From a virus: a stretch of DNA of 64,000 nt. The notes under the pieces are model-generated. The model ran no database searches. It worked only from the letters and a program-made list of their open reading frames with translations, and was not told the DNA's origin. Both the position numbers and the translations under genes were made by a program. The DNA lies in the IMG/VR virus record IMGVR_UViG_3300005663_000037, positions 1-64,000 of that record, one strand, 5' to 3'. This document shows positions 18,530 through 34,547 of this stretch, piece after piece; the first letter of the stretch is position 1, and each line of letters opens with the position of its first letter.

Positions 18530-20842
18530 CTACTTCTTTTGTTTACCTTCACCTGAAACAGGATTTTTTAATTTCGTTTTATTGTCCTCTTTGTTCTGTC
18601 TCTCATCTGAGGCTATCTTCATTCTCTTTGTTTCTTCTGTTAATCCTGTAGAGTCTGGTTCTGTTACTGATCCTGTAGAACTGGCTGTTTCAAAGCCACC
18701 AAACTCCGTAAAGGCTCCTGCGTCCCCACTGGAAGCAACCTCAGCTTTTCTCTTACTATCTGCTTCTTTCTGCTGTAACGTCATTAACAACAGTTTCTCC
18801 TCATGCTCTCGGTCTGCTTGTTTCTCTGCTTGCTCTGCTTGAGCAGCAGCAGCCTGACTTTCCTGTAAAGACTGTTCCATTTTCTCCATCTCCTTAATCA
18901 ACTTCTCCATATTATTCCCCTTAAGTATCTTAGCTACCTGAGAGGGAGTTGCTTGATTCTGGGCAAAAGCCATACTCTGGGACTTAAACATGTCTAAGTT
19001 CTCTTTATCTGTACCTGAACTGGACACATGAACTAAGTAGTCACCGTGTACAATCTGTTCTGGATTAACATCCAGAAATGCCCTTGAACCATCACTTCTT
19101 ACATAATGAGCTTTCTTTCCTTCTGAGAAGGCAAAGGATGATAAGTCAAGACAACCTTGTAAATCAGACTCTTGGTATTCATCATACTCTACAAAGATCT
19201 CCTCAGTCATAATAGTACCACGATAGATACTTTCTTCCATTGTACCCTTACCCTGAGAAGAATCTGACTCTCCACGTCTTTGTCTATTAACACCAACAGA
19301 ATTTTCCCACTCACTTTTATTATATTCCAGGAAGCCACTCATTTGACTTATATACTGATTTAGAGAAGCGTCTAATATCTTAATAGCATTAAGATGAGCA
19401 ATTGCATTCTTATCACTTGGATCTACCCATAGAATACCATTGGCCTGAGCGTAGTAAAGAAGACTTTTTTCATCATGCTTATCCCCTATTAAACTAGTAG
19501 GAAGAATAAGTAACTTGTCTAGGTTCTTAGCTATAACTCTCTCAAGATGATAGTGCATTACATTATGCTTCATCTGATAAGGATAACCCTTTTCAACAAT
19601 ACTCTTATTATCTACTACCATACTATTAAATGCCCTACCATTATAAGGATTCTTACACTTCTGGGGCTTACCAGCAGGTGCTCTTGTAATAGGAAGAGGT
19701 CTATAACCAACGTAATGTTCCCCATCTATTATATAGATCTCCATCTTCTGGTCTCTCCAATCCCAATCCACACTCTCATATTTAGTAGGCAAATAATCTT
19801 CATCTACTTCATGCTCTACCAAAGTTCCATCTATATCAGGAACAGTAACTATTCCTACCTTATGCTGCCCTGTCCATATAACATGCTCAACAAGAATATC
19901 TTCTGCCGAATGATAGGAAGTATCTCCGAATAGGTTCTTCCACATTGTCTCCCGTGCAATAGTTCCCATACCCGTAATGGTATTATAGTCACGTCTTGTA
20001 CCAGAAGCATTAGTTATTCTTTCCTCTAGAAGCTTACTTACAGCTTCAAAGCCCTTGACTCCGGTAAAGTTATCAAAGACCTCATTTATATTCATTCGGG
20101 TTATTCTCTTAATAGCTGGTGCATCTTCTAAAAATCTAAGACCGGTCTTATGCAAATACTTTATTTCATGTGGAGAAACCATCTTCACTTCCACGTCATC
20201 TTTCCAAACTCTCTTATAGGAACAAACCCAATTAGTTACTAGAAAGTTATAAAACCCATCTCTAAACTCAGTAGGAATCTTATTATACCACATAATATAA
20301 TCTAGACTGTCCTGACCTTGAATAGATAAGTCATCCTGAAGAGTCTCAGTTTCTTCTTGAATCTTCTCCATTGACTTTGGTTGCTGTGTGGGATTCCCTT
20401 TCTCGTCCAGAGGCTGTCCAACGTCTATTCCCTCCAACTGAGCTTCATTTCTATAATCCATCTTGAGAACGTTAAGAACCTCTTCAGCTTCATACTCCTT
20501 TTTCTTACTCTGTATGTCACTATTCTGAGCTATCACCTGTGAGTTTATATAACGTTTTCCCTTTTCACCTAACATAACCATTAGGATAGGAGAAATAATA
20601 TCCATATTCCTTACTTTAGCCGGGTAACCCTGTAGCTCCTTACGTCTGGTGTTTTGAGGATTAACTACATACATATAGTCACTAGCTTCGAGCCTACCGG
20701 ATGCAACCTTATATAAAAAGGAAGACTTATCAGTATCTATTCCTCTACTACAAACAGACGACCAATAGTCACCATTCTCTTTTTGCCAGTCCTTAGTCTT
20801 CTGCGATGCAGGGATGCGTTGTTTCGGTCGAGTAACTGTCAT
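18530..20842 (-). CDS. Portal protein
   Basis: The 770-residue protein follows the terminase large subunit gene and precedes scaffold and capsid genes. It has the portal layout: helical N-terminal clip/wing, a central region with WYNKIPTEFRDGFYNFLVTN and VKMVSPHEIKYLHKTG, and a long Gln/Ala/Glu-rich helical C-terminal tail (about 655-770). This tail runs MEKMEQSLQESQAAAAQAEQ and so on, a crown/barrel-like extension. Its ATG lies 50 nt inside the terminase gene, so the two are translationally coupled. The length is in the upper range for portals. Confidence 0.75.
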   Translation of the reverse strand: MTVTRPKQRIPASQKTKDWQKENGDYWSSVCSRGIDTDKSSFLYKVASGRLEASDYMYVVNPQNTRRKELQGYPAKVRNMDIISPILMVMLGEKGKRYINSQVIAQNSDIQSKKKEYEAEEVLNVLKMDYRNEAQLEGIDVGQPLDEKGNPTQQPKSMEKIQEETETLQDDLSIQGQDSLDYIMWYNKIPTEFRDGFYNFLVTNWVCSYKRVWKDDVEVKMVSPHEIKYLHKTGLRFLEDAPAIKRITRMNINEVFDNFTGVKGFEAVSKLLEERITNASGTRRDYNTITGMGTIARETMWKNLFGDTSYHSAEDILVEHVIWTGQHKVGIVTVPDIDGTLVEHEVDEDYLPTKYESVDWDWRDQKMEIYIIDGEHYVGYRPLPITRAPAGKPQKCKNPYNGRAFNSMVVDNKSIVEKGYPYQMKHNVMHYHLERVIAKNLDKLLILPTSLIGDKHDEKSLLYYAQANGILWVDPSDKNAIAHLNAIKILDASLNQYISQMSGFLEYNKSEWENSVGVNRQRRGESDSSQGKGTMEESIYRGTIMTEEIFVEYDEYQESDLQGCLDLSSFAFSEGKKAHYVRSDGSRAFLDVNPEQIVHGDYLVHVSSSGTDKENLDMFKSQSMAFAQNQATPSQVAKILKGNNMEKLIKEMEKMEQSLQESQAAAAQAEQAEKQADREHEEKLLLMTLQQKEADSKRKAEVASSGDAGAFTEFGGFETASSTGSVTEPDSTGLTEETKRMKIASDERQNKEDNKTKLKNPVSGEGKQKK

Positions 20843-22979
20843 TAGAAAATTGTCTTGTGTTCCATAAACTGTCTTTATCCGTGTTCTCAGTAGGTCTAGT
20901 AGGAGTTCTTTCCTCGTAGAGTAGTTCCTGTAAGAAATACATACCTACTCTCATACTCGCAACTCTATCAAAGTTACCAATTAAATTGTATTGACACAAC
21001 TCCTGTAACAAGCCCAAATCATTAATCGTATGGTAATTGAAGTACTCTTCTCCGTCTTCATTTATCCATCTTACCTTATATAACCACTTCTTAAAGAATA
21101 GATCACCTTGTCGCTTCACAGTGTCATTTCTACCAGACGAAATCTTAACTCCAAACTTTCTCTTAGATCCTGTATTGGGTTTCAGCGTCTCATCATAAGC
21201 CATCTGAAATTCATCTTGAAGCATATGAGTAAGATTCTTTCTCTTAGCATAACCTATTATATCCCCATCCTCATCATTCTCAAAAGCTATCTTGGCATTA
21301 AAAGCGACCGCTAGTTTAAAGATAGTATGGTTAAAGTCTTCCTGACCATCTGATCCAGGAGGTCTGCCCACGTAAGAAGCAGCTAGTATATCTCCCCTGT
21401 CTCTAGTAAAGTTATTCTCTACCTTAATCATATACGCAGCTCCTAGTGATACACCGGTAGACTCAGCAAACCTATAAGCATCTACGTTAAGGATATAAAG
21501 ATCAGGAGGGATAATTCCCTTTATCTTAACCGGTTCTTCATACAATAGAATTGCACCAGTATTATCTACTCTCTGACTATGTGGGTACGTCCATACTGGC
21601 TTAAGCTTATCATCCTTATAAAATTTTACTGACTTATCCCTAGGTTTTCCTATCCACTCATACCTACCAACAATAGGTAATGATCTGAATAAGCCAGTAC
21701 CTTGTACTCTATTTCTATGTGCAAGAAGACCTTTAGAGATAAATGGATTGCTTCTTGTTTCTAATAAGGCTTCACTAGGATTATAAGGGTTCTCAGACAT
21801 TTCCAGAATCAAATCCAGGGGCTCTGTAGATTTAGCAGCGACCTTTCTTTCTTTCTCTCTAAGTGCCTTAACCGGGCCAGTAAGACTATTACCGTCTTTA
21901 TCTTTATACTGAGGATTCTTAATAGAACTAGTAAAGAGCCCTATATCTGTACCCTCCATACCAGGATCATACACGTTATTAAACCTTAGCATATTATGAG
22001 TAGAGGGATTGTACATCAATGCTCTTAATCCAGCAAGGTTAGCTTCCTTATCTACCTTCACATTCTTAGAACCTTCCTTTCTAGACCCTCCTGTACCGAA
22101 CACTACAATAGTTCCAAAGTTATAATCTACCTCCTCTACCGACGGTCTACCTTTCTTTATTACTTCTAGTAGACCAGGAAACATCCCTGCCTCTTCAATA
22201 ACAATAATCTTTCCCCTCTTACCACGAGCCTTGTCAGTATTATCCTTGAGAGTAACCCCCATAACTTCTGATTTGTAACCTCTTTCTTTCCCATCTCCAT
22301 TATCATAAGATGCTCTCCAATGCATCTTAGAAGTATCCTTCTTGAAGTCACTACTTTTTGCAAATCCTAGGGCATGTTCATTAACAAACTCTCTGTAGTC
22401 AAGGAACTTATTTACTATACCATCCTTGGTTAAATACTCCGTTTCAAAAGCATAACAGAAAGACTTACTACCTCGTATACAAAAGTAGTTTCTTGCTGGT
22501 AAAGCACCCCCCTTAAAACTCGCACCAACCCCTCTAGGTTTTAACCATGTCATATGATGACCACCTGATAGGTTATCTTCTTCTTCTATAAGTTCAAGGT
22601 CTATGGGTAACTTCTTATAGTCTTCTAATGTTATCCCATACTCTGCTATGTCTAGAGAAGTGAAGTATCTATAGTCCTCATCCCAGAAGTCCGGGAAAGT
22701 GTAAACTCTCTCTCCGGCTTTCCGAGCATTAGTAGGACGGTTCTTAGTCACCACTCCATAGTCTGAAGCTCTAACTAACCAGATAGGACAAAAATTTAGA
22801 TACCAATAAAAATAGCCGGAGACTTTTACACCCCCGACTTCGTATCCATGCAGCGACCTATATTGCTGCTCATCCCACCAATCATGCCAGTACGGAGAGC
22901 CCAGTTCTCCGTCATCATACCTTTTGTGTTTTTGAAAGTATACTGCTTCCCGTCTGAACTCTTCCGTATTAACTAACAT
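20793..22979 (-). CDS. terL: Terminase large subunit (ATPase and nuclease)
   Basis: The 728-residue protein carries a Walker A-like loop WLKPRGVGASFKGG (about 145-158), Walker B and catalytic glutamate in GKIIVIEEAG (about 256-265), and coupling motif VVFGTGGSRKE. The C-terminal part has acidic residues of the RNase H-like nuclease, including LYILNVDAYRFAESTG and AFENDEDGDIIGYAKR. It powers DNA packaging at the portal. The 3' end overlaps the portal gene by 50 nt. The Walker A lacks the usual GKT order, as in several large-phage terminases. Confidence 0.85.
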   Translation of the reverse strand: MLVNTEEFRREAVYFQKHKRYDDGELGSPYWHDWWDEQQYRSLHGYEVGGVKVSGYFYWYLNFCPIWLVRASDYGVVTKNRPTNARKAGERVYTFPDFWDEDYRYFTSLDIAEYGITLEDYKKLPIDLELIEEEDNLSGGHHMTWLKPRGVGASFKGGALPARNYFCIRGSKSFCYAFETEYLTKDGIVNKFLDYREFVNEHALGFAKSSDFKKDTSKMHWRASYDNGDGKERGYKSEVMGVTLKDNTDKARGKRGKIIVIEEAGMFPGLLEVIKKGRPSVEEVDYNFGTIVVFGTGGSRKEGSKNVKVDKEANLAGLRALMYNPSTHNMLRFNNVYDPGMEGTDIGLFTSSIKNPQYKDKDGNSLTGPVKALREKERKVAAKSTEPLDLILEMSENPYNPSEALLETRSNPFISKGLLAHRNRVQGTGLFRSLPIVGRYEWIGKPRDKSVKFYKDDKLKPVWTYPHSQRVDNTGAILLYEEPVKIKGIIPPDLYILNVDAYRFAESTGVSLGAAYMIKVENNFTRDRGDILAASYVGRPPGSDGQEDFNHTIFKLAVAFNAKIAFENDEDGDIIGYAKRKNLTHMLQDEFQMAYDETLKPNTGSKRKFGVKISSGRNDTVKRQGDLFFKKWLYKVRWINEDGEEYFNYHTINDLGLLQELCQYNLIGNFDRVASMRVGMYFLQELLYEERTPTRPTENTDKDSLWNTRQFSNDSYSTETTHPCIAED

Positions 22980-22989
22980 CTTTACATAG

Positions 22990-23193
22990 CTACTTCTTGA
23001 CTTCAGTTAAAAACCCTTTCTCATACATGTCCTTAAATTGATCAGGACAATTTTCTTGGTTCCAAAGAATCTTAAGATTTAGACCTTTTAATACAACTAT
23101 TATATCATTAATAGTTTTAACTTTCTTAAAGTCTATTTCAAATTCTCTGTTAGTAATCAGAAAGGTATTAGTTTTAAATTTTAAATCTTTCAT
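22990..23193 (-). CDS. Small unknown protein next to terminase
   Basis: A 67-residue basic protein (MKDLKFKTNTFLITNREFEID) with alternating hydrophobic residues suggesting a small alpha/beta fold; it contains the phrase ENCPDQFKDMYEKGFL near the end. It lies between the candidate small terminase and the large terminase. No family recognised. Confidence 0.5.
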   Translation of the reverse strand: MKDLKFKTNTFLITNREFEIDFKKVKTINDIIVVLKGLNLKILWNQENCPDQFKDMYEKGFLTEVKK

Positions 23194-23222
23194 CCTCTAT
23201 ATTTATTAAAAGTTTTACGTTG

Positions 23223-23834
23223 TTAATCTTCTCTAAGATGTGTTACCCTTCCTCCTTTACGATGCTGCCTAGTTTCAGTCTGTTTCTTTACCCTAGTAAG
23301 GGAAGTCTCTACCTTTTCAATGGTAGCAGGTATTTTATCTGCCATATCTACCAACTTGTTTATTGAGGTCTGAACGAGATCCATCGTACCAATATCTAGT
23401 CGTTCTGGATTATCTCCAAGCATTGCTTCTAGATTTCTTTTCAACCCTTGTACAAAAACTAAGCTCAATCTAAGAGCCGATACAAGTACATCCAGAGCTT
23501 CAATATCAGGAACATACTCTATTTTCTCAAACCTCTTACAGGCAGCCTGAAACTCCTTAGACTTAACATCCTTTTCCTCCAGGTGTGCAACTTGAGCTAG
23601 TATCTTAGCCTCTTTACCTGATCTTCCGTAATAAGGGCTTTTAAAGGAACTCATAAAGAAGACTCCGGCCATAAGTGCCGTTGCTCGTCTCTTGCCTATG
23701 TCGTGTGACATCCCTCGTCTTCTAGCACTAGCTATTAAGTCCTTGAACTCTACAATAGTCCTAGCTTCCGGATTAAAAACTGGAAGATCAGTTCCCTGAT
23801 CAATTATTATTAGATTGTGTTCTACCGACTCCAC
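23223..23834 (-). CDS. Terminase small subunit candidate
   Basis: The 203-residue protein is largely helical. It has a basic N-terminal segment (ASARRRGMSHDIGKRRATALM), a central helical block and a heptad-like helix (about 145-185) that could form an oligomerisation coiled coil, ending in a basic tail KGGRVTHLRED. Position two genes upstream of the large terminase and this layout fit a small terminase. No clear helix-turn-helix was identified, so this is inference. Confidence 0.4.
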   Translation of the reverse strand: MESVEHNLIIIDQGTDLPVFNPEARTIVEFKDLIASARRRGMSHDIGKRRATALMAGVFFMSSFKSPYYGRSGKEAKILAQVAHLEEKDVKSKEFQAACKRFEKIEYVPDIEALDVLVSALRLSLVFVQGLKRNLEAMLGDNPERLDIGTMDLVQTSINKLVDMADKIPATIEKVETSLTRVKKQTETRQHRKGGRVTHLRED

Positions 23835-24030
23835 TACGTCTTATGTTTTTCTTGTTAACAAATCTTCCTAAATATGGAAGCCTTATTTCTTCCGTCCCTT
23901 CTTTTATAACTTTTTCTACTAACTCAAATTGAAACAGACAGGCATGTTTTACTACTTCATAGGAAAGATCAGATTTACGGGCGATCTCACTAATAATACT
24001 GTTTATCTTATCATTTCCACTATTTAACAT
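23800..24030 (-). CDS. HU/IHF-like DNA-binding protein
   Basis: The 76-residue protein matches the small DNA-bending fold: MLNSGNDKINSIISEIARKS resembles the first helices of HU/IHF, followed by LSYEVVKHACLFQFELVEKVIKEG. Next come IRLPYLGRFVNKKNIRRSG, which corresponds to the conserved P-x-L-G-x-F hinge of HU proteins. The DNA-binding arm is short, so it is a minimal or divergent member. Such proteins are encoded next to packaging genes in several Bacteroidota phages and could help packaging, replication or chromatin control. Overlaps the next gene by 35 nt. Confidence 0.65.
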   Translation of the reverse strand: MLNSGNDKINSIISEIARKSDLSYEVVKHACLFQFELVEKVIKEGTEEIRLPYLGRFVNKKNIRRSGVGRTQSNNN

Positions 24031-24063
24031 ACTGCAATATAGTAAATATCCTACACCTATATA

Positions 24064-24282
24064 TTATATACGGTAAATTTTTTCACATTGAGTACACTTT
24101 AGATACCTTAATTTACCCGAGCTAAAAAACCGTAGAAATTCTGTTACCGTCCGGCACTTATCACAGAACTGGACTAAACCTCTAATCATGTCGATAGCAG
24201 AGCTAACAAAAGAACTAGGGGTAACCTTATTAGAAACTACCATCTGTTCCTTACGAACTGACTTCCTATAATCAAATGCCAT
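24064..24282 (-). CDS. Small zinc-ribbon protein
   Basis: This protein has two cysteine pairs, FCDKC and KCTQC, separated by about 23 residues, as in a zinc ribbon. The ATG at 24282 (MAFDYRKSVRK) is preferred over the ATG at 24303 because it reduces overlap with the upstream gene to 11 nt. Length is then 72 residues. It could bind nucleic acid or another protein. No family named. Confidence 0.6.
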   Translation of the reverse strand: MAFDYRKSVRKEQMVVSNKVTPSSFVSSAIDMIRGLVQFCDKCRTVTEFLRFFSSGKLRYLKCTQCEKIYRI

Positions 24283-24784
24283 TGATACCAGGGAATTTAG
24301 CAATTACCTCAAAGGCTCTTATACCATACAAATCTACATCCTTCAAATCAGGAGCAAACTTTTCTAACTTATGAGGTAAACCAAAAGGAAAAGGAAAGGT
24401 ATCTACCTGTATACCGTCACCTACTTTTAAATCTAACCCTTTTACTCTTCTTCCATTTTCCAACTCCACTCCCTCTATAAGCTCACTGTTTCTATCCCAA
24501 TCTACTACGATATGATAATTCTTTCGCATCTCTGAACGTGTCCAATCAGATCCGTCCATACTCTTTATTAATATCCCACCCCTAGTAGCTTTCTGTATCA
24601 TTGGATATACCACAATAGTATTTTGAAAAGGCGTAACCTTCATAAGCTCATAAACCTCTATAACATGACTAATAAACTGCTTGGCATCCTTTATCCGTTT
24701 CAATTCCTCCTCTGCATCTTTCTTAAGCCGTTCTACTTCAGCAGCATTCACAACCATACCTACACTTTTTCCACCTATACTCAT
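24272..24784 (-). CDS. GroES-like co-chaperonin candidate
   Basis: The 170-residue protein has a helical N-terminal extension (residues 1-45). A GroES-like core then runs MKVTPFQNTIVVYP and ATRGGILIKS (about 48-75), later VKGLDLKVGDGIQV (about 112-126), then LYGIRAFEVIAKF near 152-164. This order (P-L-x-x-x-V-V-V, then GGI-L, then VGD, then the closing strand) matches GroES and phage co-chaperonins such as T4 gp31, which adapt host GroEL to fold the capsid protein. The mobile-loop region is different and longer. Its operon contains the virion genes, consistent with that role. Confidence 0.5.
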   Translation of the reverse strand: MSIGGKSVGMVVNAAEVERLKKDAEEELKRIKDAKQFISHVIEVYELMKVTPFQNTIVVYPMIQKATRGGILIKSMDGSDWTRSEMRKNYHIVVDWDRNSELIEGVELENGRRVKGLDLKVGDGIQVDTFPFPFGLPHKLEKFAPDLKDVDLYGIRAFEVIAKFPGINGI

Positions 24785-25818
24785 AGTTTCTCAATTATTT
24801 TAGTTAATACTACTTTATCCATTTTTTCTTGTTTCTTTATTTCCTCAATCAAATCTAGATCTACAACATCCGTAATAGCCTCATCTAGTATTGCAGTCAG
24901 AATATCCGGAGGAAGAGCATCTAACTCCCAACTAACTCCTCCATACTTATTCATATACCCTTTAGCTCTAGGATCTTTTATCTTTGCCGGATCGGGAGGA
25001 AGATCATATTGTTCTATCTGCCCTAGGGTAAGAGCAATAGATTCAACAGTAAGATACCTTCTCATATAAGCCTTGGTTGCGTCATAATTACCCTGATTCC
25101 TACCTATTCTTATAAGAAACCTCTTATCCTCTAGTAGTAGCTCCATGTCTTCTTCATACTCCTCAGTAGTAATGTATTTATTTAAAACCCTCTCAAAGTC
25201 TCGCATCACTCTTGCCCCCGACATCATTGTTAAAAGCCGATCCTCTATATCCCGTATCATGTCTATACCAGATGGATCGTGGTCGCCCATATAGATAATC
25301 CTAACTGGTATACCAATTCTTAGATAATAATACATTCGTTCAAACCCTTCATAGATAGCCGTTATCGAGGTATACCCTCTATTAACCATTAGATTGATAT
25401 GATACTTACTAGTCACCGGATACAGAATACCAGATAGTGCATCTTTCTCTGTCCAAACTTCTATATACTCTGACTGTCCTTCCATTCTGTCAAGCCTATA
25501 CACATCATGTTCATTTTCAATAGCTTCCTTTGGATCACTTACAGCGTAAGGAATCCTAGGTCGTCTAACTCTATCCTCAATAGCTGTCCAATCTACGAGA
25601 CCGCTCAATCTTCCTTTTGTTAATAAAGAACCAAGTCGATTGTACTCTGTTACCTTATTAGAAATCTCCTTCATTGTTACTAGTCGATAGTATAATTGTC
25701 GTAAGGTCAGGTTATACCCCTTTTCTATATAATCATTAATTATACCATTTACCATATCCAGTCTAGCTAGACTCATTTCCTTCAATGTTATTGAATGATC
25801 AAATATTTCTTTTCCCAT
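24781..25818 (-). CDS. Topoisomerase VI-A/Spo11-like (Mini-A type) protein
   Basis: The 345-residue protein shows both halves of the type IIB topoisomerase A fold. Residues 38-46 read TLRQLYYRL, matching the R-x-(I/L)-Y-Y catalytic-tyrosine motif of the winged-helix 5Y-CAP domain. The TOPRIM domain follows, with E124 in EVWTEKDAL and the D-x-D pair D179/D181 in YMGDHDPSGIDM. Later GGVSWELDALPPD is also conserved in phage members as I remember them. This family makes double-strand breaks or passages with a B-type ATPase; stand-alone A-like proteins are known from mobile elements. No adjacent B subunit exists here, but a GHKL-like protein is encoded at 53468-54865. Overlaps the next gene by 4 nt. 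Confidence 0.65.
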   Translation of the reverse strand: MGKEIFDHSITLKEMSLARLDMVNGIINDYIEKGYNLTLRQLYYRLVTMKEISNKVTEYNRLGSLLTKGRLSGLVDWTAIEDRVRRPRIPYAVSDPKEAIENEHDVYRLDRMEGQSEYIEVWTEKDALSGILYPVTSKYHINLMVNRGYTSITAIYEGFERMYYYLRIGIPVRIIYMGDHDPSGIDMIRDIEDRLLTMMSGARVMRDFERVLNKYITTEEYEEDMELLLEDKRFLIRIGRNQGNYDATKAYMRRYLTVESIALTLGQIEQYDLPPDPAKIKDPRAKGYMNKYGGVSWELDALPPDILTAILDEAITDVVDLDLIEEIKKQEKMDKVVLTKIIEKL

Positions 25819-25920
25819 AGTTATTTAATTAATTAGGTAAGGAAGAGGAAGATACTGAGTAGAGTACCCTCCTCATTCCTATTACCTATCGTCTTCCCAC
25901 AGACGTTGCAAACACTGTCT

Positions 25921-26178
25921 TTATTTCCTTGGTTCTATCTTCTCTCTCAGTTCATCATCTTCTATTAGATGGAATAATACTCTACACCCATCTTTAACTC
26001 GTTTAAATGGAATCTGTACCTTAAAGTACTTTCTAAAGAAAGGGTCTATAGGATAACTCATTTTAAGCTCACTAGAAAGTTCTCCCGCCGGAGGGCCACA
26101 AAACAGTCCTATACGAAGCAAGTATCCTAGACTCACAGTCCCATCTACCTCTTCTCTATCTGTTATCCTCTCTCCCAT
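25921..26178 (-). CDS. Small unknown protein
   Basis: An 85-residue protein starting MGERITDREEVDGTVSLGYLL with a mildly basic second half (KYFKVQIPFKRVKDGCRVLFHL). It lies 5 nt from the HExxH protein gene. The following 100 nt before the topoisomerase-like gene hold no startable gene. Function unknown. Confidence 0.5.
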   Translation of the reverse strand: MGERITDREEVDGTVSLGYLLRIGLFCGPPAGELSSELKMSYPIDPFFRKYFKVQIPFKRVKDGCRVLFHLIEDDELREKIEPRK

Positions 26179-26182
26179 GTCT

Positions 26183-26509
26183 TTATATCTTAGCAGAGCT
26201 TAATACTTGATGAAGAACCATTGCAAATCTACTAACAAAAACTTCATCCTCACTCAATTTCTTATAACGTAAATCATTAAGAATATAATGCACAACCTCA
26301 TGCCAGAAAGTAGTTTCTATCTTAACCGGATCTATATCTTTACCGTCAAATCTCTTACTTAATAGTACCTTTGATTCAGCATATAAGGCCAGTCCGTAAC
26401 TCCCGTCTGCATCACAGCGTTCCTGATCAAACACTACTTTTATTGTCTTTCCAAATAACTGAAACTCCTTAGGAATTGATGGAGACTGTTTTTTAGTTAA
26501 TAGTTTCAT
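26183..26509 (-). CDS. HExxH zinc metallopeptidase-like protein
   Basis: The 108-residue protein has FWHEVVHYIL with H70, E71 and H74 forming the HExxH zinc site, preceded by a beta-rich N-terminal part (FGKTIKVVFDQE, GSYGLALYAESKVLLS). The layout is like short ImmA/IrrE- or SprT-type phage metalloproteins: strands, then the active helix. A third zinc ligand may be the later H99 or E87. It could process a repressor or act structurally; the target is unknown. Confidence 0.7.
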   Translation of the reverse strand: MKLLTKKQSPSIPKEFQLFGKTIKVVFDQERCDADGSYGLALYAESKVLLSKRFDGKDIDPVKIETTFWHEVVHYILNDLRYKKLSEDEVFVSRFAMVLHQVLSSAKI

Positions 26510-26522
26510 ATATGTTTAAAGT

Positions 26523-26795
26523 TTATTTGTAAAATCCTTTCGGTACATACCTGTTGTGAGGATCATTGACATTTACCATTTTCTTATCCTTCTTCCCATC
26601 ATCTCCTTTCTTTTCTGATTCAAGTAAATACTTGTCCTTATATATACCAACTATTCGATACACTTCACCGTTTACATTATCCAGAACTACCCCCTTAGGA
26701 AATACACGTTCACCCACAATGCAAATGATTAAGGTAGTCATTAAAAGTTTGATTATAAAAAGGATGCCTTGAATCAACAATACGTTCCTCTTCAT
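26523..26795 (-). CDS. Small membrane-anchored protein (start uncertain)
   Basis: A 90-residue protein with a hydrophobic N-terminus (residues 5-28, LLIQGILFIIKLLMTTLIICIV). A hydrophilic region rich in Lys and Asp follows (ESEKKGDDGKKDKK). Its first 29 codons overlap the neighbouring gene in another frame. A later ATG at 26741 would leave a shorter overlap but cut the membrane segment. It could be a N-in single-pass protein. Function unknown. Confidence 0.4.
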   Translation of the reverse strand: MKRNVLLIQGILFIIKLLMTTLIICIVGERVFPKGVVLDNVNGEVYRIVGIYKDKYLLESEKKGDDGKKDKKMVNVNDPHNRYVPKGFYK

Positions 26796-27173
26796 CTAAA
26801 ATGTGTTTTGCATTTCGCCATTCACAACACGTTCCATGTACATCGTTAGGAACACCACAATGACATTCTGTAGTAGATACGTTTTCCCATAAATCAAAGC
26901 CACAAACAAAAGCATAAGCTCCATCCATAACATAATGAAGAGGACAAACTACCATCCTTAGATTCGGATTTGTCAGCAAGTCATCTATATCAAACTCAAA
27001 TCCTCCTTTTTGAACCGTTTCGTTCTTCTTCTCTGAAAACAAGCGTGATGCAATCTCCTTTTTATCGTTACGTTTTATAGCTTCCTTTATCCATTGTAAA
27101 AAAATGAGTAGTTCTTGACAGGTATTCCATCAACTAAAAGATTTCCCTCCTTAAAATTTACTAGTGTATACAT
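26710..27173 (-). pseudogene. Cysteine-rich protein, apparently frameshifted near its 5' end
   Basis: An ATG at 27173 opens a 28-codon frame (MYTLVNFKEGNLLVDGIPVKNYSFFYNG) ending at 27087. One base back in a run of seven A on the plus strand (27098-27104) the frame continues as LQWIKEAIKRNDKKEIAS into the longer frame that ends at 26710. Alone, the longer frame would need a TTG start at 27042 and lose this conserved-looking helix. A -1 slip or one missing base in the homopolymer restores a protein of about 155 residues with Cys/His pairs (VVCPLHYV, TECHCG, CCEW). It is either an assembly error or a programmed slip. Confidence 0.55.
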
Positions 27174-27225
27174 TGTTTAATTTTTAGAACATTTAACTTT
27201 CTCCCACCTACCCTATTCTCTCATA

Positions 27226-28077
27226 TTAAGCTGCTTTTAAGTAATATTCAATCATCGCATCTACTTCATCTTTTAAATAAAGCATAGGATACCTCTCTGT
27301 ATCCAATGGATTAAGCTTACCCTTTTTATCCCTCTTCACATGCTCAATCCACATGTCTCTTACTTTTAGACCATAATATTCTAACATACGACCGTATAAA
27401 GATCCTTGCAACTGATAGTGCATAAAGTTACAGTCCATTATATGAGCTATAGGAGAGTACATCATGTCTTGTTGTCTGGTAGATGGGTTTGTGTAGGATA
27501 CCTTATCCAATTTCTTATTCGTCTTATAATCTCCTATATCTACATATGGCTTTTCTACCACTACAAGATCAGCCTGTCCTGCCGTCTTCCACTCATTTAC
27601 GTAGATCAACAGCTCAGAGTATATACCGTCAGGAATCTGGGAGAAGTCGTAATCTATCATATCCTGAGGTTTCATAACGTGAATTATCCCATCAACCTTA
27701 TGATACATCTCCTTCTTCCATCCTATCTCTTTCTTAGCATGTAAGTCATGGCCCTCATCTCTCGCAGTATCTCCTATGTCTAACCACATCTTAATAATCT
27801 GAGTCTGGATCTCAGACACTTTTATCTTCTCAGCAGGTTTAGCATAACCCTCAAACCAACGGTTAATGCTCTTATACCCTACCATCCTCTTTATCGCAAG
27901 CCACTCACTCTCACCTCCCTTATAGTCTGTCATCCATTTCTGAATAGCCTTATATCGACTCCAATACTTCGTATCAAAAGGTTTATGGAATTTAGATATT
28001 AAGGTAGTTACTCCTATATAGTCTAGTCCAGTCTCATCCTTATACGTATGGCCTTCCGGCTCAAATGTTACTTTCAT
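27226..28077 (-). CDS. PD-(D/E)XK superfamily nuclease (RecB/Cas4-like)
   Basis: The 283-residue protein starts with the HTYKDETG beta hairpin typical of phage RecB-like nucleases. It carries an acidic helix EGHDLHAKKE (near 108), AGQADLVVVEK with D170, and VDIGDYKTNK with D183 and K185. These are the motif II and III residues that bind metal in this superfamily. A likely role is DNA end processing in recombination or replication. Overlaps the next gene by 17 nt. Confidence 0.65.
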   Translation of the reverse strand: MKVTFEPEGHTYKDETGLDYIGVTTLISKFHKPFDTKYWSRYKAIQKWMTDYKGGESEWLAIKRMVGYKSINRWFEGYAKPAEKIKVSEIQTQIIKMWLDIGDTARDEGHDLHAKKEIGWKKEMYHKVDGIIHVMKPQDMIDYDFSQIPDGIYSELLIYVNEWKTAGQADLVVVEKPYVDIGDYKTNKKLDKVSYTNPSTRQQDMMYSPIAHIMDCNFMHYQLQGSLYGRMLEYYGLKVRDMWIEHVKRDKKGKLNPLDTERYPMLYLKDEVDAMIEYYLKAA

Positions 28078-28288
28078 GGTTCTTTACTATTCCAGTTATC
28101 ATATCTAATGTTTTTACTCCTTCTTGAGTTTCTACTGTGATAATACGTTCTATAACTGATGTTACGAAGCCAAGCATCCTCAGATTTCTTATAACCTCTA
28201 AAGTACCTATATGCCCTACCATAACATCTGCGTTACCGGTATGTACAGTATATATAGCACCTGGAAATATTTTCTCTTCTAGTGTCAT
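28061..28288 (-). CDS. Small unknown protein
   Basis: The 75-residue protein starts MTLEEKIFPGAIYTVHTGNA and has an alternating hydrophobic pattern, suggesting a small beta-rich fold. It overlaps both neighbours (17 nt and 4 nt), so it belongs to a coupled cassette. No motif recognised. Confidence 0.5.
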   Translation of the reverse strand: MTLEEKIFPGAIYTVHTGNADVMVGHIGTLEVIRNLRMLGFVTSVIERIITVETQEGVKTLDMITGIVKNHESNI

Positions 28289-28533
28289 CCTTGTATTAGG
28301 CTAGAAAAATAGGGAGAGAGTACGCTTAAATCTATAAGACCTATCTCTTGTGCTCTCTCCATAGTCATAACAACTCGCTCTACTCTCATCCCACCCTCAC
28401 CTATTATAGTAACCCGACTAGAAGCACTGTCAATATACAATCCAGTTATATATAGAGTTGGTTCTTTCTCCGTTTTTATATCAAAAGTTGGAATTAACCA
28501 CACAACAACGTTATCTTTCTTACTACTTCTCAT
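28285..28533 (-). CDS. Small unknown protein
   Basis: An 82-residue protein with beta-rich sequence (VVWLIPTFDIKTEKEPTLYITGLYIDSAS), then a helix near ERVVMTMERAQEIG. It is coupled to the next gene through ATGA overlap. No known family. Confidence 0.5.
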   Translation of the reverse strand: MRSSKKDNVVVWLIPTFDIKTEKEPTLYITGLYIDSASSRVTIIGEGGMRVERVVMTMERAQEIGLIDLSVLSPYFSSLIQG

Positions 28534-28545
28534 TTTCTAAGTTTA

Positions 28546-28860
28546 TCATAATATCAGTTCCTTTTCCATATGTACTAACTTACGAAGTCCATACATCTTA
28601 TTAGTATATTTAATCTCCTTCATAGGATCTTTAACTCTAGCACTGTATATAACCCTTTGATCCCTTTTACTAAAAATCACAATAAAGTGTCTACCATCTC
28701 GGTACCAGTGGTATCTTACAAACCACTTATCTACAGGAGGTACCTTAACCCTTGCTGCTTTCTTCTCAATCTCAATACCCTTGATTTTATCCAATACCTC
28801 TCTACCTTCCCCCTTCTTACCTACGACAAAAGACTGAGCAAATTTTCCTGAGTTAGTCAT
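28546..28860 (-). CDS. Small basic unknown protein
   Basis: The 104-residue protein is basic and contains VDKWFVRYHWYRDGRHFIVIF, a beta-rich aromatic core, and a helical end MYGLRKLVHMEKELIL. The start ATG overlaps the end of the winged-helix gene. Function unknown; an association with the DNA-binding neighbour is possible. Confidence 0.5.
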   Translation of the reverse strand: MTNSGKFAQSFVVGKKGEGREVLDKIKGIEIEKKAARVKVPPVDKWFVRYHWYRDGRHFIVIFSKRDQRVIYSARVKDPMKEIKYTNKMYGLRKLVHMEKELIL

Positions 28861-29170
28861 TAAATTCCATTAATTTCTTATTCACTACATATACTCCACG
28901 ACCATCATCTGTAGGTATTAATATCTTTAACATCTTTAATCTCTTTATATGTCTCTCTATTGTAGACTGAGGCATCTTATTAAGTTTTACATGGATTCTA
29001 AGATGATTACCTTGATTAGATACCCACTTATTATCTTCCTTATTCATCTGTTTTAAGATCAATCTTAAAACCTTAATATGAGGTTCATTAAGAGCTTGAA
29101 ATAAGTCTGGATTTACGTCCATATAAATCTTAATATACTTTCTTCTTGGTTGTCTAAAGACATTATTCAT
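28853..29170 (-). CDS. Winged helix DNA-binding protein (RepL-like)
   Basis: The 105-residue protein has the winged-helix pattern of plasmid/phage RepL-type proteins: HIKVLRLILKQMNKED, then IHVKLNKMPQSTIERHIKRL (recognition helix), then KMLKILIPTDDGRGVYVV (wing strands). Such proteins bind DNA as initiators or transcription regulators. Its location in the early part of the left arm suits a regulator of the arm or of replication. Overlaps neighbours by a few bases, so it is coupled. Confidence 0.65.
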   Translation of the reverse strand: MNNVFRQPRRKYIKIYMDVNPDLFQALNEPHIKVLRLILKQMNKEDNKWVSNQGNHLRIHVKLNKMPQSTIERHIKRLKMLKILIPTDDGRGVYVVNKKLMEFND

Positions 29171-29430
29171 TACCTCCCCTCAGTGTCTGTTACTGCATCT
29201 TCTTCCTTATTTCCACTATATGTTATCTTCACAATTCCAACGTCTAGATTAATATCTATACGATGGATCTTCCCACCCGGAGCTAAGGTAGTTTGATCTA
29301 CCTTAGCTAAACCAGACTCATCAGGAGCGAGGTTACTCATAGACATATAACCGGGACGTACAAAGTGAATAGACTTTATGTCCCCTATATCCTGTACCTC
29401 TTCCTTTCTAATTGGCCTCTTTTCCTCCAT
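29170..29430 (-). CDS. Small unknown protein
   Basis: The 86-residue protein has a disordered basic start (MEEKRPIRKEEVQDIGDIK) and a beta-rich second half (HRIDINLDVGIVKITYSG). It overlaps both neighbours, showing coupling to the winged-helix and coiled-coil genes. No family recognised. Confidence 0.5.
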   Translation of the reverse strand: MEEKRPIRKEEVQDIGDIKSIHFVRPGYMSMSNLAPDESGLAKVDQTTLAPGGKIHRIDINLDVGIVKITYSGNKEEDAVTDTEGR

Positions 29431-29914
29431 GTATCTTTTGAGCTAGGTTCTTAATAGACTTTTCCTTTACTTTAGTAGAAGACATTAGAACTTCCTTCCT
29501 GTCTTCAGAATAGGAATCATCATGACTTAGCTGAGATACATGATTATCAAGTGTATCTTTAAGTCCCCTTATTTCTCCTTGAAGATCCGATACCTGTCCA
29601 GCTAGGTTCTGACTATCTAACGTATTGATAGTTTCATCAATCTGATTTCCAAGAGAGAGTAATTTTTCTTTCAGACCAGAGATGTCCTCAGCCGTTTTCT
29701 TAAAGAAATCATCCACCGTCTCTCCTAAGTCTACTACATCCTTAGTTAATCCAATTACAGGGTCTTGTTGACCGGTTTCCTTAGTCTCTTCCTGAATATC
29801 CTCACTTTCTATTCGTTCAATAGCCCGTTCTAAAACGTCCTCTAATCTATTACTAGTAACAGACGTGTTACCAGCAACAAATTCTTTCCTTAATTCTTCT
29901 AATAATATTTTCAT
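29408..29914 (-). CDS. Coiled-coil protein
   Basis: The 168-residue acidic protein is dominated by heptad-like helices (about 55-130: SGLKEKLLSLGNQIDETINTL, DLQGEIRGLKDTLDNHVSQL) and a basic C-terminal end KSIKNLAQKIHGGKEAN. This looks like an oligomeric adaptor. No enzymatic motif. Function unknown. Confidence 0.6.
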   Translation of the reverse strand: MKILLEELRKEFVAGNTSVTSNRLEDVLERAIERIESEDIQEETKETGQQDPVIGLTKDVVDLGETVDDFFKKTAEDISGLKEKLLSLGNQIDETINTLDSQNLAGQVSDLQGEIRGLKDTLDNHVSQLSHDDSYSEDRKEVLMSSTKVKEKSIKNLAQKIHGGKEAN

Positions 29915-29938
29915 TGTCTTTAATTGTTTATGTGAATA

Positions 29939-30205
29939 TTATAACTGTAAACCATCTGCCGTAGGTTCTATCTTAGTTCCCGTAGTAGGGTCTTTGCTAC
30001 TAGGATACGGATTAGGAGTATTGAGTCTCTTTAAATCCATTCCTAACCACATTACACCTTCCTGTAACTTGGTAATAGACAAACTACGCTCCCTGGAGGT
30101 AGGTAAGGCTTTAATTCTCTGAATTATTTCATCAGTGTCTTTTCGTAGTTGCTTATCAGCTACTACGTCATCTTCAAATGTCATCATGTTATTTTCTGTT
30201 TCCAT
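29939..30205 (-). CDS. Small helical unknown protein
   Basis: An 88-residue protein, helical and charged in the first two-thirds (DEIIQRIKALPTSRERSLSI), ending in a Pro/Thr-rich tail. It precedes the coiled-coil gene with a 24-nt gap. Function unknown. Confidence 0.5.
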   Translation of the reverse strand: METENNMMTFEDDVVADKQLRKDTDEIIQRIKALPTSRERSLSITKLQEGVMWLGMDLKRLNTPNPYPSSKDPTTGTKIEPTADGLQL

Positions 30206-30208
30206 TAT

Positions 30209-30490
30209 TTAATTGTTTATGTTAAAGTTATAAATTTCTTCCTCAAAAGGTACAGGATCACTCCATGTACCATCATCTTTAGAGTAACAGTACCAAAGCC
30301 TTACTTCATGCGGAGAGGCAGTCCACTCCTTTTTAAAAGGAAGAGTAAATGTCTTTCCTCCAAGTCCGGGAACATCTAATCTGTTATCATGTCCCGCAGT
30401 CAATCTTCTCTTCTTCCAAAGAGATGTTACTATTGTTAGCCCAGCTCCTATAAGAATCAGTACACTAACAAGGAATTTTTTTCTAGTCAT
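30209..30490 (-). CDS. Membrane-anchored small protein with twin-basic start (third of trio)
   Basis: The 93-residue protein begins MTRKKFLVSVLILIGAG, a hydrophobic segment to about residue 25, then SLWKKRRL. The soluble part (about 30-93) is beta-like with several tryptophans and ends in FNINN. The N-terminal layout and W-K-K-R border resemble the protein encoded two genes upstream (30755-31087), which suggests duplication. The start has a twin-basic pair (RK) rather than RR, so Tat export is doubtful; an uncleaved anchor is likely. Confidence 0.55.
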   Translation of the reverse strand: MTRKKFLVSVLILIGAGLTIVTSLWKKRRLTAGHDNRLDVPGLGGKTFTLPFKKEWTASPHEVRLWYCYSKDDGTWSDPVPFEEEIYNFNINN

Positions 30491-30491
30491 T

Positions 30492-30755
30492 TTAGTATCT
30501 ATATGAATCTAAATGTAGGCCATAAATGTTATACGTATCAAATATCTCTTGTTCCTTCTTTTCCATCCATTCTTCCTGTTTCTGCCAAGCTTCCCAGTCT
30601 ATCCAGTACTGTTTATTCTTAAAAGTAACATGAACCTTCCTGCTCTCAAGCTCAGAAACTTCTGGCCAGTTACGATCTGTAGCTAATACAGCAGGAGTTA
30701 CGGCAATTACTGCCACTCCTGTTACTAACTCTTTAAAAAATCCTCTCCTCTTCAT
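30492..30755 (-). CDS. Secreted small protein with twin-arginine-like signal (second of trio)
   Basis: The 87-residue protein begins MKRRGFFKELVTGVAVIAVT, then PAVLATDRNW. K-R-R-G-F-F-K matches the R-R-x-F-(L/I/F)-K Tat pattern, the hydrophobic core is moderate, and A-V-L-A before TD is a plausible signal peptidase site. The mature part is helical and charged (EAWQKQEEWMEKKEQEIF). Its start codon shares a base with the TAA of the preceding gene. Exported function unknown. Confidence 0.6.
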   Translation of the reverse strand: MKRRGFFKELVTGVAVIAVTPAVLATDRNWPEVSELESRKVHVTFKNKQYWIDWEAWQKQEEWMEKKEQEIFDTYNIYGLHLDSYRY

Positions 30756-31087
30756 TATTTAAAAGGTTTATTCATTACAAACACTCTACGGCCTTCTAAT
30801 TCTTTTACCTCCTCAGGAGTAACTACCATCCCCGGTTTCGCAGTCATATCATGATGCATAAACGTCACAGTACCTCCATTCGCTAGATGATACCTAAACA
30901 TATCTCCCTCTTTAGGTATATAGCACTCATCCGGTGTCAAAGGATACTTAGCCATGTCATTAGATATTGATACTATCTTATGTCTAGCATCACTTCTTTT
31001 CTTCCACCAACATACAGCTCCAGCTATCCCCGTTATTGCTAACAGAAAAGCGAACCATAAGTCTTTTATAAAGTTCCTTCTAGTCAT
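30755..31087 (-). CDS. Membrane-anchored small protein with twin-arginine-like start (first of trio)
   Basis: The 110-residue protein starts MTRRNFIKDLWFAFLLAITG, hydrophobic to about residue 28, followed by VCWWKKRSDARHK. T-R-R-N-F-I-K is a good Tat-type motif. The mature region includes YHLANGGTVTFMHHDMT and EVKELEGRRVFVMNKP, suggesting a small beta-rich domain outside the cytoplasm. It overlaps the 71-residue gene upstream and the next gene by single codons, so the three membrane proteins form one unit. Confidence 0.6.
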   Translation of the reverse strand: MTRRNFIKDLWFAFLLAITGIAGAVCWWKKRSDARHKIVSISNDMAKYPLTPDECYIPKEGDMFRYHLANGGTVTFMHHDMTAKPGMVVTPEEVKELEGRRVFVMNKPFK

Positions 31088-31299
31088 GGTCGTTCGTATA
31101 ATTTTTCTAGATAAGTCTTACCGTCATACATCTTTTTAACTTCCAGTATAAACAGTGCATTCTCCGAGTTATTCCAACCATGTTCTTCCATACATGCTGT
31201 CATCTCCTTCACAATATCGTCTTTGGTTATATCCCGCTTCCACTCTTGTACAGGTACATCCTGATAACTTGTATAATATATTGTATAGGTATCCGTCAT
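31084..31299 (-). CDS. Small unknown protein
   Basis: A 71-residue protein (MTDTYTIYYTSYQDVPVQEW, then KRDITKDDIVKEMTACMEEHG). The first part looks like a beta strand pair, the second is helical. Overlap with the next gene's start (31084-31087) shows coupling to the twin-arginine-like trio. Function unknown. Confidence 0.5.
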   Translation of the reverse strand: MTDTYTIYYTSYQDVPVQEWKRDITKDDIVKEMTACMEEHGWNNSENALFILEVKKMYDGKTYLEKLYERP

Positions 31300-31322
31300 A
31301 TTAATTTCTTATAAAGTTTCTT

Positions 31323-32441
31323 CTAGTCATCATTCCTAGGTCCTTTTACTTGTGTTACAACTATACCAATAGTATTAGACCCTCCACCTCGTCCTACTCC
31401 TTTTACCTTATACCAACGATCCGTATCTTTTGTGTATACAAAGTGACCTACATGAAGATTCTGTACCTCATTTACTATAGGATCAGCAACTAGAATAAGA
31501 CCAGTGCCAGTTCCACTTATCATCTTATAGTCTGTAAGAGTAAAGTTTGGGCCTTCATTCTGCTCATTGAATGTAGGTTCCTTTTTAGTAGGCAAATAAT
31601 CTTCATCAGGTACTTTAGTTACCACAAAGGCTTTCTTATTAGAATTTGACTCTTGTTCTATACCTCTAATTATATATACATTACGAAGATTGATGTCTAC
31701 TACACTATTCCCTACTTGTGCCTTCTCTAACATCTCTAGGTTATTATGAGGGATTAACACCAAACCCCTACCAGTAATTTCCTTTAAGTCGTAATCAGTT
31801 AACATCCATGTTCCTTTAAGCGGAGTAGGTATCTTACCTATGTAATACATATCAGGATCAGAGTGAGAAGGCCCCGATCCAACAAAAGAACCATCAGTAG
31901 GAGTTACTGTTACCTCCGGCCCATCACAAGTCACTTTAAACGGATTAGGGACACAAGGACATCTACTAGTATAAGGAGACAATCCAGCCCCACATACAGG
32001 ACAAGTCCAGCTTTGAGGACTAAAGAGCCCAGGCATAGGAGTAGTTGGACAAGTACATCGTTCAGGATCAACCGCACTATCTATGGCTAACCAACTATAT
32101 AACTTACCACATTTCTGACATCTTGTTTTATTGTGCATACCACCTTGCAATTCTCCTAGTGCCTCAGTTGTCTTGAACTGCATGTTCTTATCATGTTCTC
32201 GTTTCTTCAGACACTCACATAATGGCCCACCAGAATGTGTACCATCCAGAGTAAAGGGTTTTCCACATACAGAACATATATTAGGCGTGATATAGCTCGT
32301 CTTATCTTCTATTGTTACACCAGTCTCATCTCCGGTTACTTTAGTCTCAAACTTTATTCCCTTCTTATGCATCCCACCTCTTAGCTCAGTCACATTCTTA
32401 TTCTCACTAAGAGGAGGATTAGGATTTATTGTCTTTGTCAT
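31323..32441 (-). CDS. Multi-zinc-ribbon protein with C-terminal internal duplication
   Basis: The 372-residue protein has repeated Cys-x2-Cys knuckles: ICSVCGKPF, LCECLKK, RCQKCGKLY, WTCPVCGAGL, RCPCVPN. Two blocks start with LQGGMH or LRGGMH. The C-terminal half holds two copies of a domain: MLTDYDLKEITGRGLVLIP (about 217) and TLTDYKMISGTGTGLILVA (about 305), each followed by VGNSV or VGHFV and a closing VVT-V strand. Zinc knuckles joined to duplicated beta domains suggest a nucleic-acid or protein adaptor. No family named. Confidence 0.6.
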   Translation of the reverse strand: MTKTINPNPPLSENKNVTELRGGMHKKGIKFETKVTGDETGVTIEDKTSYITPNICSVCGKPFTLDGTHSGGPLCECLKKREHDKNMQFKTTEALGELQGGMHNKTRCQKCGKLYSWLAIDSAVDPERCTCPTTPMPGLFSPQSWTCPVCGAGLSPYTSRCPCVPNPFKVTCDGPEVTVTPTDGSFVGSGPSHSDPDMYYIGKIPTPLKGTWMLTDYDLKEITGRGLVLIPHNNLEMLEKAQVGNSVVDINLRNVYIIRGIEQESNSNKKAFVVTKVPDEDYLPTKKEPTFNEQNEGPNFTLTDYKMISGTGTGLILVADPIVNEVQNLHVGHFVYTKDTDRWYKVKGVGRGGGSNTIGIVVTQVKGPRNDD

Positions 32442-32443
32442 AA

Positions 32444-32686
32444 CTATCTAATTTGTGTCTTTCTTGTATTTATGCGTTGTGCTGAACTGTTAGTAGAAGT
32501 ATCAGAAGAACTAATAGCTCTAACTTTAATTGTAAAACCACTATTATACGTGTACGTAGTGTTTCCTCTCCTATTCCTATCTCTTGTTTCCAACTCCTTA
32601 CCTATCGCTTCCACAAGAAGTCTCAAATCCTTATCAGAAAGTTGATATAACTGACCTGCTATAGTACCAAAGGTTACGTCTTGCAT
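32444..32686 (-). CDS. Small unknown protein
   Basis: An 80-residue protein with a helical N-terminal half (FGTIAGQLYQLSDKDLRLLVEA) and a Ser/Thr/Asn/Arg-rich tail (DTSTNSSAQRINTRKTQIR). It lies directly upstream of the zinc-ribbon gene with a 2-nt gap. Function unknown. Confidence 0.5.
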   Translation of the reverse strand: MQDVTFGTIAGQLYQLSDKDLRLLVEAIGKELETRDRNRRGNTTYTYNSGFTIKVRAISSSDTSTNSSAQRINTRKTQIR

Positions 32687-32694
32687 ATTACTAA

Positions 32695-32754
32695 TTAAAC
32701 TGTAATCCCAGGTACGTCTGTCTTCTCTATTATAATTGGTTTAGCTACACTCAT
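32695..32754 (-). CDS. Tiny 19-codon gene candidate
   Basis: The frame reads MSVAKPIIIEKTDVPGITV. Its ATG overlaps the TGA of the preceding gene (ATGA), the junction used by true genes in this arm, and it ends shortly before the next start. The sequence is not low-complexity. It could also be a chance frame, since nothing else supports it. Confidence 0.3.
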   Translation of the reverse strand: MSVAKPIIIEKTDVPGITV

Positions 32755-33071
32755 CCTTCCATTCTTTTATCCCAATCAAAGGAAGCTGTCTTTACTACTT
32801 CTCCCCCGGTTCCGAAGAATACAGGAGGATTAGACTTAAAAGGAACACAGAAGAAACTACTAGTATCATTCCACAGCTTTAACAACTCTTTTCTCTCTTC
32901 TTCTGTCATCCTACTAGGACACTCATAAGGACTAAACGCTATAATCCCTTCTGTTCTACCTCCTCTTGATCTAACAGCTTCTTCAGGGAATGGCTCAAGT
33001 ACTTCTTTCATAGCTTCTATTGATCCAGCTAAAGGTTCCTTCGTTTTATTACTCATATCACTATCTTTCAT
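32751..33071 (-). CDS. Unknown protein near the left-arm promoter
   Basis: The 106-residue protein begins MKDSDMSNKTKEPLAGSIEA. Its middle has IIAFSPYECPSRMTEEERKELL, then an aromatic C-terminal part with FFCVPFKSNPPVFFGTGGE. No family is recognised. Being one of the first genes of the minus-strand arm, it is probably expressed early. Confidence 0.55.
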   Translation of the reverse strand: MKDSDMSNKTKEPLAGSIEAMKEVLEPFPEEAVRSRGGRTEGIIAFSPYECPSRMTEEERKELLKLWNDTSSFFCVPFKSNPPVFFGTGGEVVKTASFDWDKRMEG

Positions 33072-33111
33072 ATGTTAGTTCCAATTTACTCTTAACTCTA
33101 GGAGGAATGCC

Positions 33112-33269
33112 TCATTTTATCCACTCTATTATTCCTATTACAATTGCTAGTATTATACTATCTACGATTAGACTGGGTAATATAACTATACCCCACTCTT
33201 CCCCTCTATTTGCTTATTCCAAGGATGAAATTCATCAACTATACATATTATAAGCCAAAGTATTGTCAT
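33112..33269 (-). pseudogene. Small two-helix membrane protein with an apparent frameshift
   Basis: The ATG at 33269 opens MTILWLIICIVDEFHPWNKQ and stops at 33186. Moving one base at the run of four C on the plus strand (33201-33204) joins it to EEWGIVILPSLIVDSIILAI, which continues VIGIIEWIK and ends at 33112. The joined product would be a 52-residue protein with two membrane segments. Both parts look like real coding sequence, and no other start is available for the second part. It is either a one-base assembly error, a decayed gene or a programmed slip. It would be the first gene of the left arm. Confidence 0.45.
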
Positions 33270-33370
33270 AAGTCTACTATCTTAATAAATTGTGTATCCA
33301 AAAAATATTTTTTCACCCTTGCAAGTTAAGGGTAAACGGTGATATATCCTAATAATCCGGAAAATAAAAG

Positions 33371-33394
33371 TTATCCACATTCAATTGTGGAAAA
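33371..33394 (+). promoter_or_regulatory. DnaA-box-like inverted pair
   Basis: TTATCCACA at 33371-33379 is identical to the classical bacterial DnaA box. It is followed by TGTGGAAAA, one base from the reverse complement of the same box. The pair forms the inverted repeat TCCACA-N6-TGTGGA. Found once in the window's largest gene-free region. Confidence 0.5.
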
Positions 33395-33432
33395 ATAAAT
33401 ACGATTTTTATAGTGTTTCAAAATGATACACT

Positions 33433-33525
33433 TTTCACCCTCACATCCTGTAGCTACTACCACCAGGATGTGGTGGTGTGAGCCTCAGAAAGTGATGTTA
33501 GTACCTATAAAAAGTGAGGGTGAAA
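33433..33525. repeat. Nested perfect inverted repeats (12-base outer, 9-base inner)
   Basis: Outer arms TTTCACCCTCAC (33433-33444) and GTGAGGGTGAAA (33514-33525) are exact reverse complements. Inner arms CACATCCTG (33442-33450) and CAGGATGTG (33464-33472) are exact as well, separated by 13 bases. A related TTTCACCCTTGC occurs at 33312-33323. This could be a protein-bound operator/origin structure. Confidence 0.7.
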
Positions 33526-33570
33526 TTTTAGAACTCCTTGATAATCAGATAGTTACCAAAATTACCAATA

Positions 33571-33607
33571 CTAAAGCAAGACTGCTTTAGCAGTCCTTCC
33601 TGAAGGA
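33571..33607. repeat. Cluster of overlapping short palindromes
   Basis: CTAAAGCA-AGAC-TGCTTTAG (33571-33590) and GACTGC-TTTA-GCAGTC (33580-33595) are alternative hairpins. They are followed by TCCTTC-CT-GAAGGA (33594-33607). The two first hairpins exclude each other, suggesting a switchable or protein-bound structure rather than a simple terminator; no T-run follows. Confidence 0.6.
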
Positions 33608-34240: not shown

Positions 34241-34241
34241 C

Positions 34242-34536: not shown

Positions 34537-34547
34537 ACCTATTTAAT

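Follow-up and report, generated by a model that had tools for sequence, protein, structure and literature searches.

Background

Mini-A proteins are small relatives of the topoisomerase VI A subunit (Topo VI-A) that are carried on mobile elements, and excerpts of three reviews describe their function as unknown (PMC8084294, PMC8185306, PMC11302465). A figure legend of a fourth review names Pseudomonas phage NP1 as a Mini-A carrier (PMC7614492). No report of Mini-A activity was found in the literature that we searched. In the founding Mini-A paper, that of Takahashi et al. in 2020, a C-terminal motif reportedly distinguishes Mini-A from both Topo VI and Topo VIII. For the A subunit of M. mazei Topo VI, excerpts of a structural study describe the tyrosine Y106, the metal residues E202, D254, and D256, and an electrostatic clasp formed by R102 and E342; the E342Q mutant cleaves more (PMC13040014).

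Here, we describe a 345-aa protein encoded in the window, that is, the whole 64,000-nucleotide stretch of DNA that we analyzed (positions 1 to 64,000 of the 100,621-bp IMG/VR virus record IMGVR_UViG_3300005663_000037). On sequence evidence, we assign this protein to Mini-A, a virus-encoded Topo VI-A/Spo11-like family without a B subunit. The family itself is already described; what is new here is the crAss-like host and the reading of two residues as a clasp.

Family membership and predicted fold

The gene occupies positions 24781..25818 on the minus strand and begins with an ATG start codon. The motifs quoted for this open reading frame (ORF) in the earlier note are all present: TLRQLYYRL at residues 38-46, EVWTEKDAL at 120-128, and YMGDHDPSGIDM at 176-187. 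Its GC content (36.7%, against 37.2% for the window) does not make it an outlier. The ORF is far from a chance occurrence, because both homology and pattern searches recover viral relatives: tblastn finds them in 71 of 50,697 phage records (best E 5e-73), including NP1, and they are encoded in at least 552 of at least 599 pattern-matched viral stretches. In a direct comparison with NP1 Mini-A, 104 of 343 positions are identical (30%; residues 3-345; E 2e-50), and the protein also matches PHROG 6247, “DNA topoisomerase” (E 1.2e-73).

The window protein and NP1 Mini-A are thus homologous over their full length; both are virus-encoded, lone A-like subunits that have the same invariant residues and share the motif SWELDAL. 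They differ in that the window protein carries, within its TOPRIM region, an inserted helical segment of some 50 residues that NP1 lacks (residues ~203-253, 25060..25212, minus strand; helices at pLDDT ~70-80) and that sequence alignments show to be absent from most relatives, and in that the host of the window protein is crAss-like. The protein has a predicted winged helix with the active-site tyrosine followed by a TOPRIM E...DxD arrangement, it is virus-encoded, and no B subunit was found in its record, which may be incomplete. Thus, the stand-alone Topo VI-A/Spo11-like protein that the earlier note had proposed corresponds to a published family, and we consider it very probable that both family and chemistry are of the Mini-A type. 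Its placement within the Mini-A tree is weakly supported (0.69-0.76). A scan of viral contigs for close relatives, with the 345-aa protein as sole query, found none, and an NCBIfam search gave single, chance-like matches only.

An AlphaFold model of the full protein, built from an input of 50 window and viral-contig sequences, has a pLDDT of 90.6 and a pTM of 0.86. In a second-look structural alignment, the TOPRIM and C-terminal part (residues 98-318, 24865..25527, minus strand) has Topo VI-A as its first match (1d3y_A; Z 12.4, rmsd 4.9, 154 residues aligned), followed by Corynebacterium glutamicum MksG (8b7f; Z 11.4) and by Spo11 (8urq, Z 9.8; 8uru, Z 9.7). The N-terminus lay outside the full-length alignment, and residues 1-110 were therefore modeled separately (pLDDT 83.7). 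The best chain for this model is again 1d3y_A (Z 7.4, rmsd 2.3 Å over 70 residues), and the next scores Z 6.4. A Z below 8 is weak by itself; it gains weight here because Topo VI-A tops the comparison for both halves, in the correct order. The predicted winged helix (residues 13-85, 25564..25782, minus strand) pairs with residues 72-144 of Mj Topo VI-A and places Y44 at about Mj position 103, which we take to be the catalytic tyrosine. The comparison with Topo VI-A and Spo11 suggested earlier therefore led neither to an unrelated TOPRIM family nor to a structure without a winged-helix tyrosine site.

Other searches place the protein at a distance from known Topo VI. Foldseek returned nothing at E ≤ 0.001 (best 5.4e-3), PDB sequence searches gave no match, and TP6A_N (PF04406) scores 13.1 bits against a cutoff of 26. 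Neither HATPase_c nor Topo-VIb_trans, the GHKL ATPase and transducer of a B subunit, matches at E ≤ 1 anywhere in the 100,621-bp record (which may be incomplete), and so the absence of an adjacent B subunit remarked on earlier extends to the whole record. The likeness to Topo VI-A (1d3y, 2zbk, 9o0g) therefore lies in the winged helix plus TOPRIM, the TLRxLYY motif, the metal-site residues, and a probable R/E clasp, whereas the window protein is shorter (~300 aa minus the insertion), falls below the TP6A_N cutoff, has another C-terminal motif, and comes with no B subunit that we could find. It resembles the Spo11 core complex (8urq, 8uru) in its TOPRIM half, and Spo11 cleaves DNA without belonging to a complete topoisomerase, as the window protein probably does too; Spo11, however, is eukaryotic and has meiotic partners, while the window protein has no PDB sequence match.

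Active-site conservation and a putative clasp

We collected 177 loci and counted the 156 ORFs that fall in the Mini-A cluster, the remaining ORFs being partial or mis-called. R40 (25699..25701), Y44 (25687..25689), E124 (25447..25449), D179 and D181 (D179-H-D181, 25276..25284), and E298 (24925..24927), all on the minus strand, are each kept in 156/156. The position of Y43 is less constant (Y in 147, F in 8, H in 1). The earlier note had left both Y43 and Y44 as candidates for the nucleophile; conservation settles the choice on Y44, which we predict to be the DNA-attacking tyrosine and which is now singled out as the residue to mutate.

Since the loci had been collected by patterns that contain active-site motifs, members missing each pattern were counted separately. 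Y44 is kept in 21/21 members without YY, D179 and D181 in 10/10 without DP, and E124 in 63/63 without EVWxEK. A divergent set, found by tblastn rather than by pattern, includes archaeal virus HCIV-1, Cellulophaga phage phi3ST:2, and Chryseobacterium phage MA9V-3. A nine-sequence alignment with these distant relatives has only 12 invariant columns: R40, Y44, R70, G73, E124, K125, G148, S151, D179, P182, G184, and E298.

Individual relatives show departures of their own. In the HCIV-1 relative (L304:2420-3451), N replaces the second aspartate of DxD, at the D181 position. The MA9V-3 relative (L215:5851-6879) is very divergent and annotated as hypothetical; it has C at the Y43 position and keeps Y44, E124, and D179. 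The relative in Parabacteroides phage PDS1 (L216:3944-4830) is divided between two ORFs that overlap, one annotated as DNA topoisomerase and the other as DNA primase; this could be a split gene or a frameshift.

Archaeal Topo VI-A loci carry the same STLRELYY motif. Weak profile alignments to M. mazei Topo VI-A (hhalign probability ~4%) pair R40 with R102, Y44 with Y106, D179 with D254, D181 with D256, D282 with D319, and R284 with R321; they set E124 on G192 rather than E202 and do not set E298 on E342. We read the invariant R40, Y44, E124, D179, and E298 as a putative active site plus clasp like that of M. mazei Topo VI, in which E124 would be the TOPRIM metal-site glutamate, R40 the clasp arginine (equivalent to R102), and E298, within SWELDAL, the clasp glutamate. 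The suggested equivalence of E298 with E342 is based on position, on a shared E-x-x-A-L similarity, and on invariance. This reading, which draws on Topo VI structures of 2026, predicts that an E298Q substitution would increase cleavage.

Genomic neighborhood

The gene after Mini-A (170 aa, 24272..24784, minus strand) starts within the end of Mini-A, with a 4-nt ATGA overlap. It had been called GroES-like, a label that finds no backing in any Pfam or PHROG match. A 76-aa protein (23800..24030, minus strand) had been called HU-like; this is plausible from its match to PF00216 (E 0.0011), although the score of 19.6 bits is under the Pfam cutoff of 22.4. The large terminase subunit, of crAss type (20793..22979, minus strand; phrog_6681, E 4.7e-78), is encoded further along, and a 283-aa exonuclease (phrog_298, E 8.6e-21; 27226..28077, minus strand) lies 1.4 kb upstream of Mini-A in the same same-strand gene run.

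ORFs within 6 kb of Mini-A were clustered across the 177 loci, and the following counts refer to labeled clusters. Many of them encode replication and recombination functions, in keeping with the role proposed below: a helicase (16 loci), a DNA polymerase (12), a primase (11), and a RecE-like exonuclease (6); a further helicase cluster, named after one annotated member, occurs in 9. The other neighbors are an integrase (25), a repressor (16), a second integrase family (10), a methyltransferase (7), and the large terminase subunit (7), with the integrases and repressors probably reflecting prophages among the genome contigs. One cluster present in 18 loci overlaps the coordinates of Mini-A, looks like antisense Mini-A ORFs, and was excluded. 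Among the 25 commonest of the 145 PHROG families matched by nearest neighbors (150 neighbors from 78 of 97 non-redundant loci), none occurs more than 3 times, and packaging families are absent.

Promoter-like sites in the region do not exceed shuffled sequence (48 versus 46.6). Terminator-like hairpins do so in 22900-36300 (15 versus 5.9), and several lie at 33312-34617, where two gene blocks diverge.

Proposed mechanism and alternatives

By homology with Topo VI-A and Spo11, two copies of Mini-A would act as a dimer. Y44 in the winged helix of one copy would attack DNA held at the TOPRIM metal site of its partner (E124, D179, and D181); both strands would be cut, with the protein left covalently on the 5′ ends, as with Topo VI-A and Spo11. 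The R40/E298 pair would probably be a clasp that restrains the winged helix. The search of the phage record turned up no ATPase partner, so cleavage is probably uncoupled from ATP-driven strand passage. The most likely role of such an enzyme would be in cutting or disentangling phage DNA during replication, thereby feeding recombination-dependent replication. We propose this role tentatively: no partner backs it, because no neighbor recurs in over 25 of the 177 loci. Unlikely, though worth stating, is a fuller version in which Mini-A would be a pared-down prokaryotic equivalent of Spo11 that needs no ATP. Its dimer, held inactive by the R40/E298 clasp, would be self-sufficient and would make programmed double-strand breaks in phage DNA that start recombination-dependent replication. 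A lone DNA-cutting A subunit, if true, would help explain how Spo11-type breakage can proceed without ATP-driven strand passage.

The same conserved Topo VI-A active site could instead make Mini-A a genuine topoisomerase, acting on phage DNA by relaxation or decatenation, either independently of ATP or with a host ATPase replacing the B subunit. Excerpts of a review report a precedent, M. marina Topo VIII, which relaxed DNA without ATP (PMC7614492). We find this possible but doubtful, given that no B subunit was found in the phage's own record and that a GHKL ATPase (HATPase_c) occurs in 1/50 Mini-A viral records (the larger contigs, 50 of 80). The near tie of MksG with Topo VI-A on the TOPRIM half (Z 11.4 and 12.4) raises another reading: Mini-A would be a hydrolytic nuclease, akin to the SMC-based defense nucleases MksG and JetD, and would cleave the DNA of the host or of rivals with no tyrosine-DNA intermediate. 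Pfam DUF2399 is touched by 3/50 relatives (best E 0.0015), and a DUF2399 control search had zero matches, with its positive controls also silent. According to excerpts of a study of these nucleases, MksG and JetD work without a winged-helix tyrosine, and the 5Y-CAP domain of MksG has no candidate tyrosine (PMC10123090). Mini-A, by contrast, has R40 and Y44 in 156/156 ORFs, and PADLOC assigns 0 families to the window protein and to three of its neighbors, all of which makes the nuclease reading improbable.

The earlier note saw a hint that the gene might help to resolve or package the genome. In a packaging reading, Mini-A would serve the terminase by cutting or resolving concatemers. In the window, Mini-A does lie on the same strand as the terminase, portal, and major head protein genes, and in Pseudomonas phage PspYZU01 it adjoins the terminase genes, so adjacency occurs; it is not the rule. 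The large terminase subunit is within 6 kb in only the 7/177 loci counted above, and Mini-A is present in 0/50 viral records with a related crAss-type terminase (50 of 80; 8 exceed 48 kb and the others are shorter fragments; the positive control gave a signal in 3/3). In one viral record that has both genes (G002), Mini-A is ~50 kb from the terminase. We therefore regard packaging as very improbable, and cleavage of replicating DNA by a lone Mini-A dimer as the preferred, if provisional, reading.

A crAss-like host and the distribution of Mini-A

Judged by its marker proteins, the source phage is assigned to a deep branch of the crAss-like phages. The markers are the terminase, a portal that matches phrog_6547 (E 4.4e-70), and a major head protein that matches phrog_11589 (E 8.4e-56). 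Among phage records, the terminase finds its best matches in crAss-like genomes (~32% identity), and the four of these that we checked are all Crassvirales, Suoliviridae; the portal is ~26-27% identical to crAss-like records. A viral-contig scan with the terminase found no close relatives. The host range of Mini-A thus extends to a crAss-like phage.

No crAss name appears among the 60 of the 71 Mini-A phage records listed. We considered G002 as a second crAss-like carrier and rejected it: its terminase fits phrog_6681, but Mini-A is the only window protein that it matches convincingly. Mini-A looks sporadic in the crAss-like lineage and was probably acquired horizontally. Beyond phage records, relatives occur in 387/494 pattern-matched stretches of one-per-species genomes of Bacteria and Archaea. 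A TP6A_N protein is also present in 4/29 such genomes searched, which fits the presence of a host Topo VI distinct from Mini-A.

Other features of the phage and of its crAss-like relatives deserve mention. A 3,512-aa ORF (L018:9290-19828) of the same phage contains DFDMD, presumably resembling the RNA polymerase motif in the giant virion proteins of crAss-like phages. A 239-aa ORF (L018:3878-4597) matches phrog_12143, of unknown function, and contains GQDPY, which we take to be a uracil-DNA glycosylase motif. The terminases of crAss-like phages cr125_1 and cr6_1 (L220 and L221) are open only if TAG is read as an amino acid, whereas the window terminase is unrecoded.
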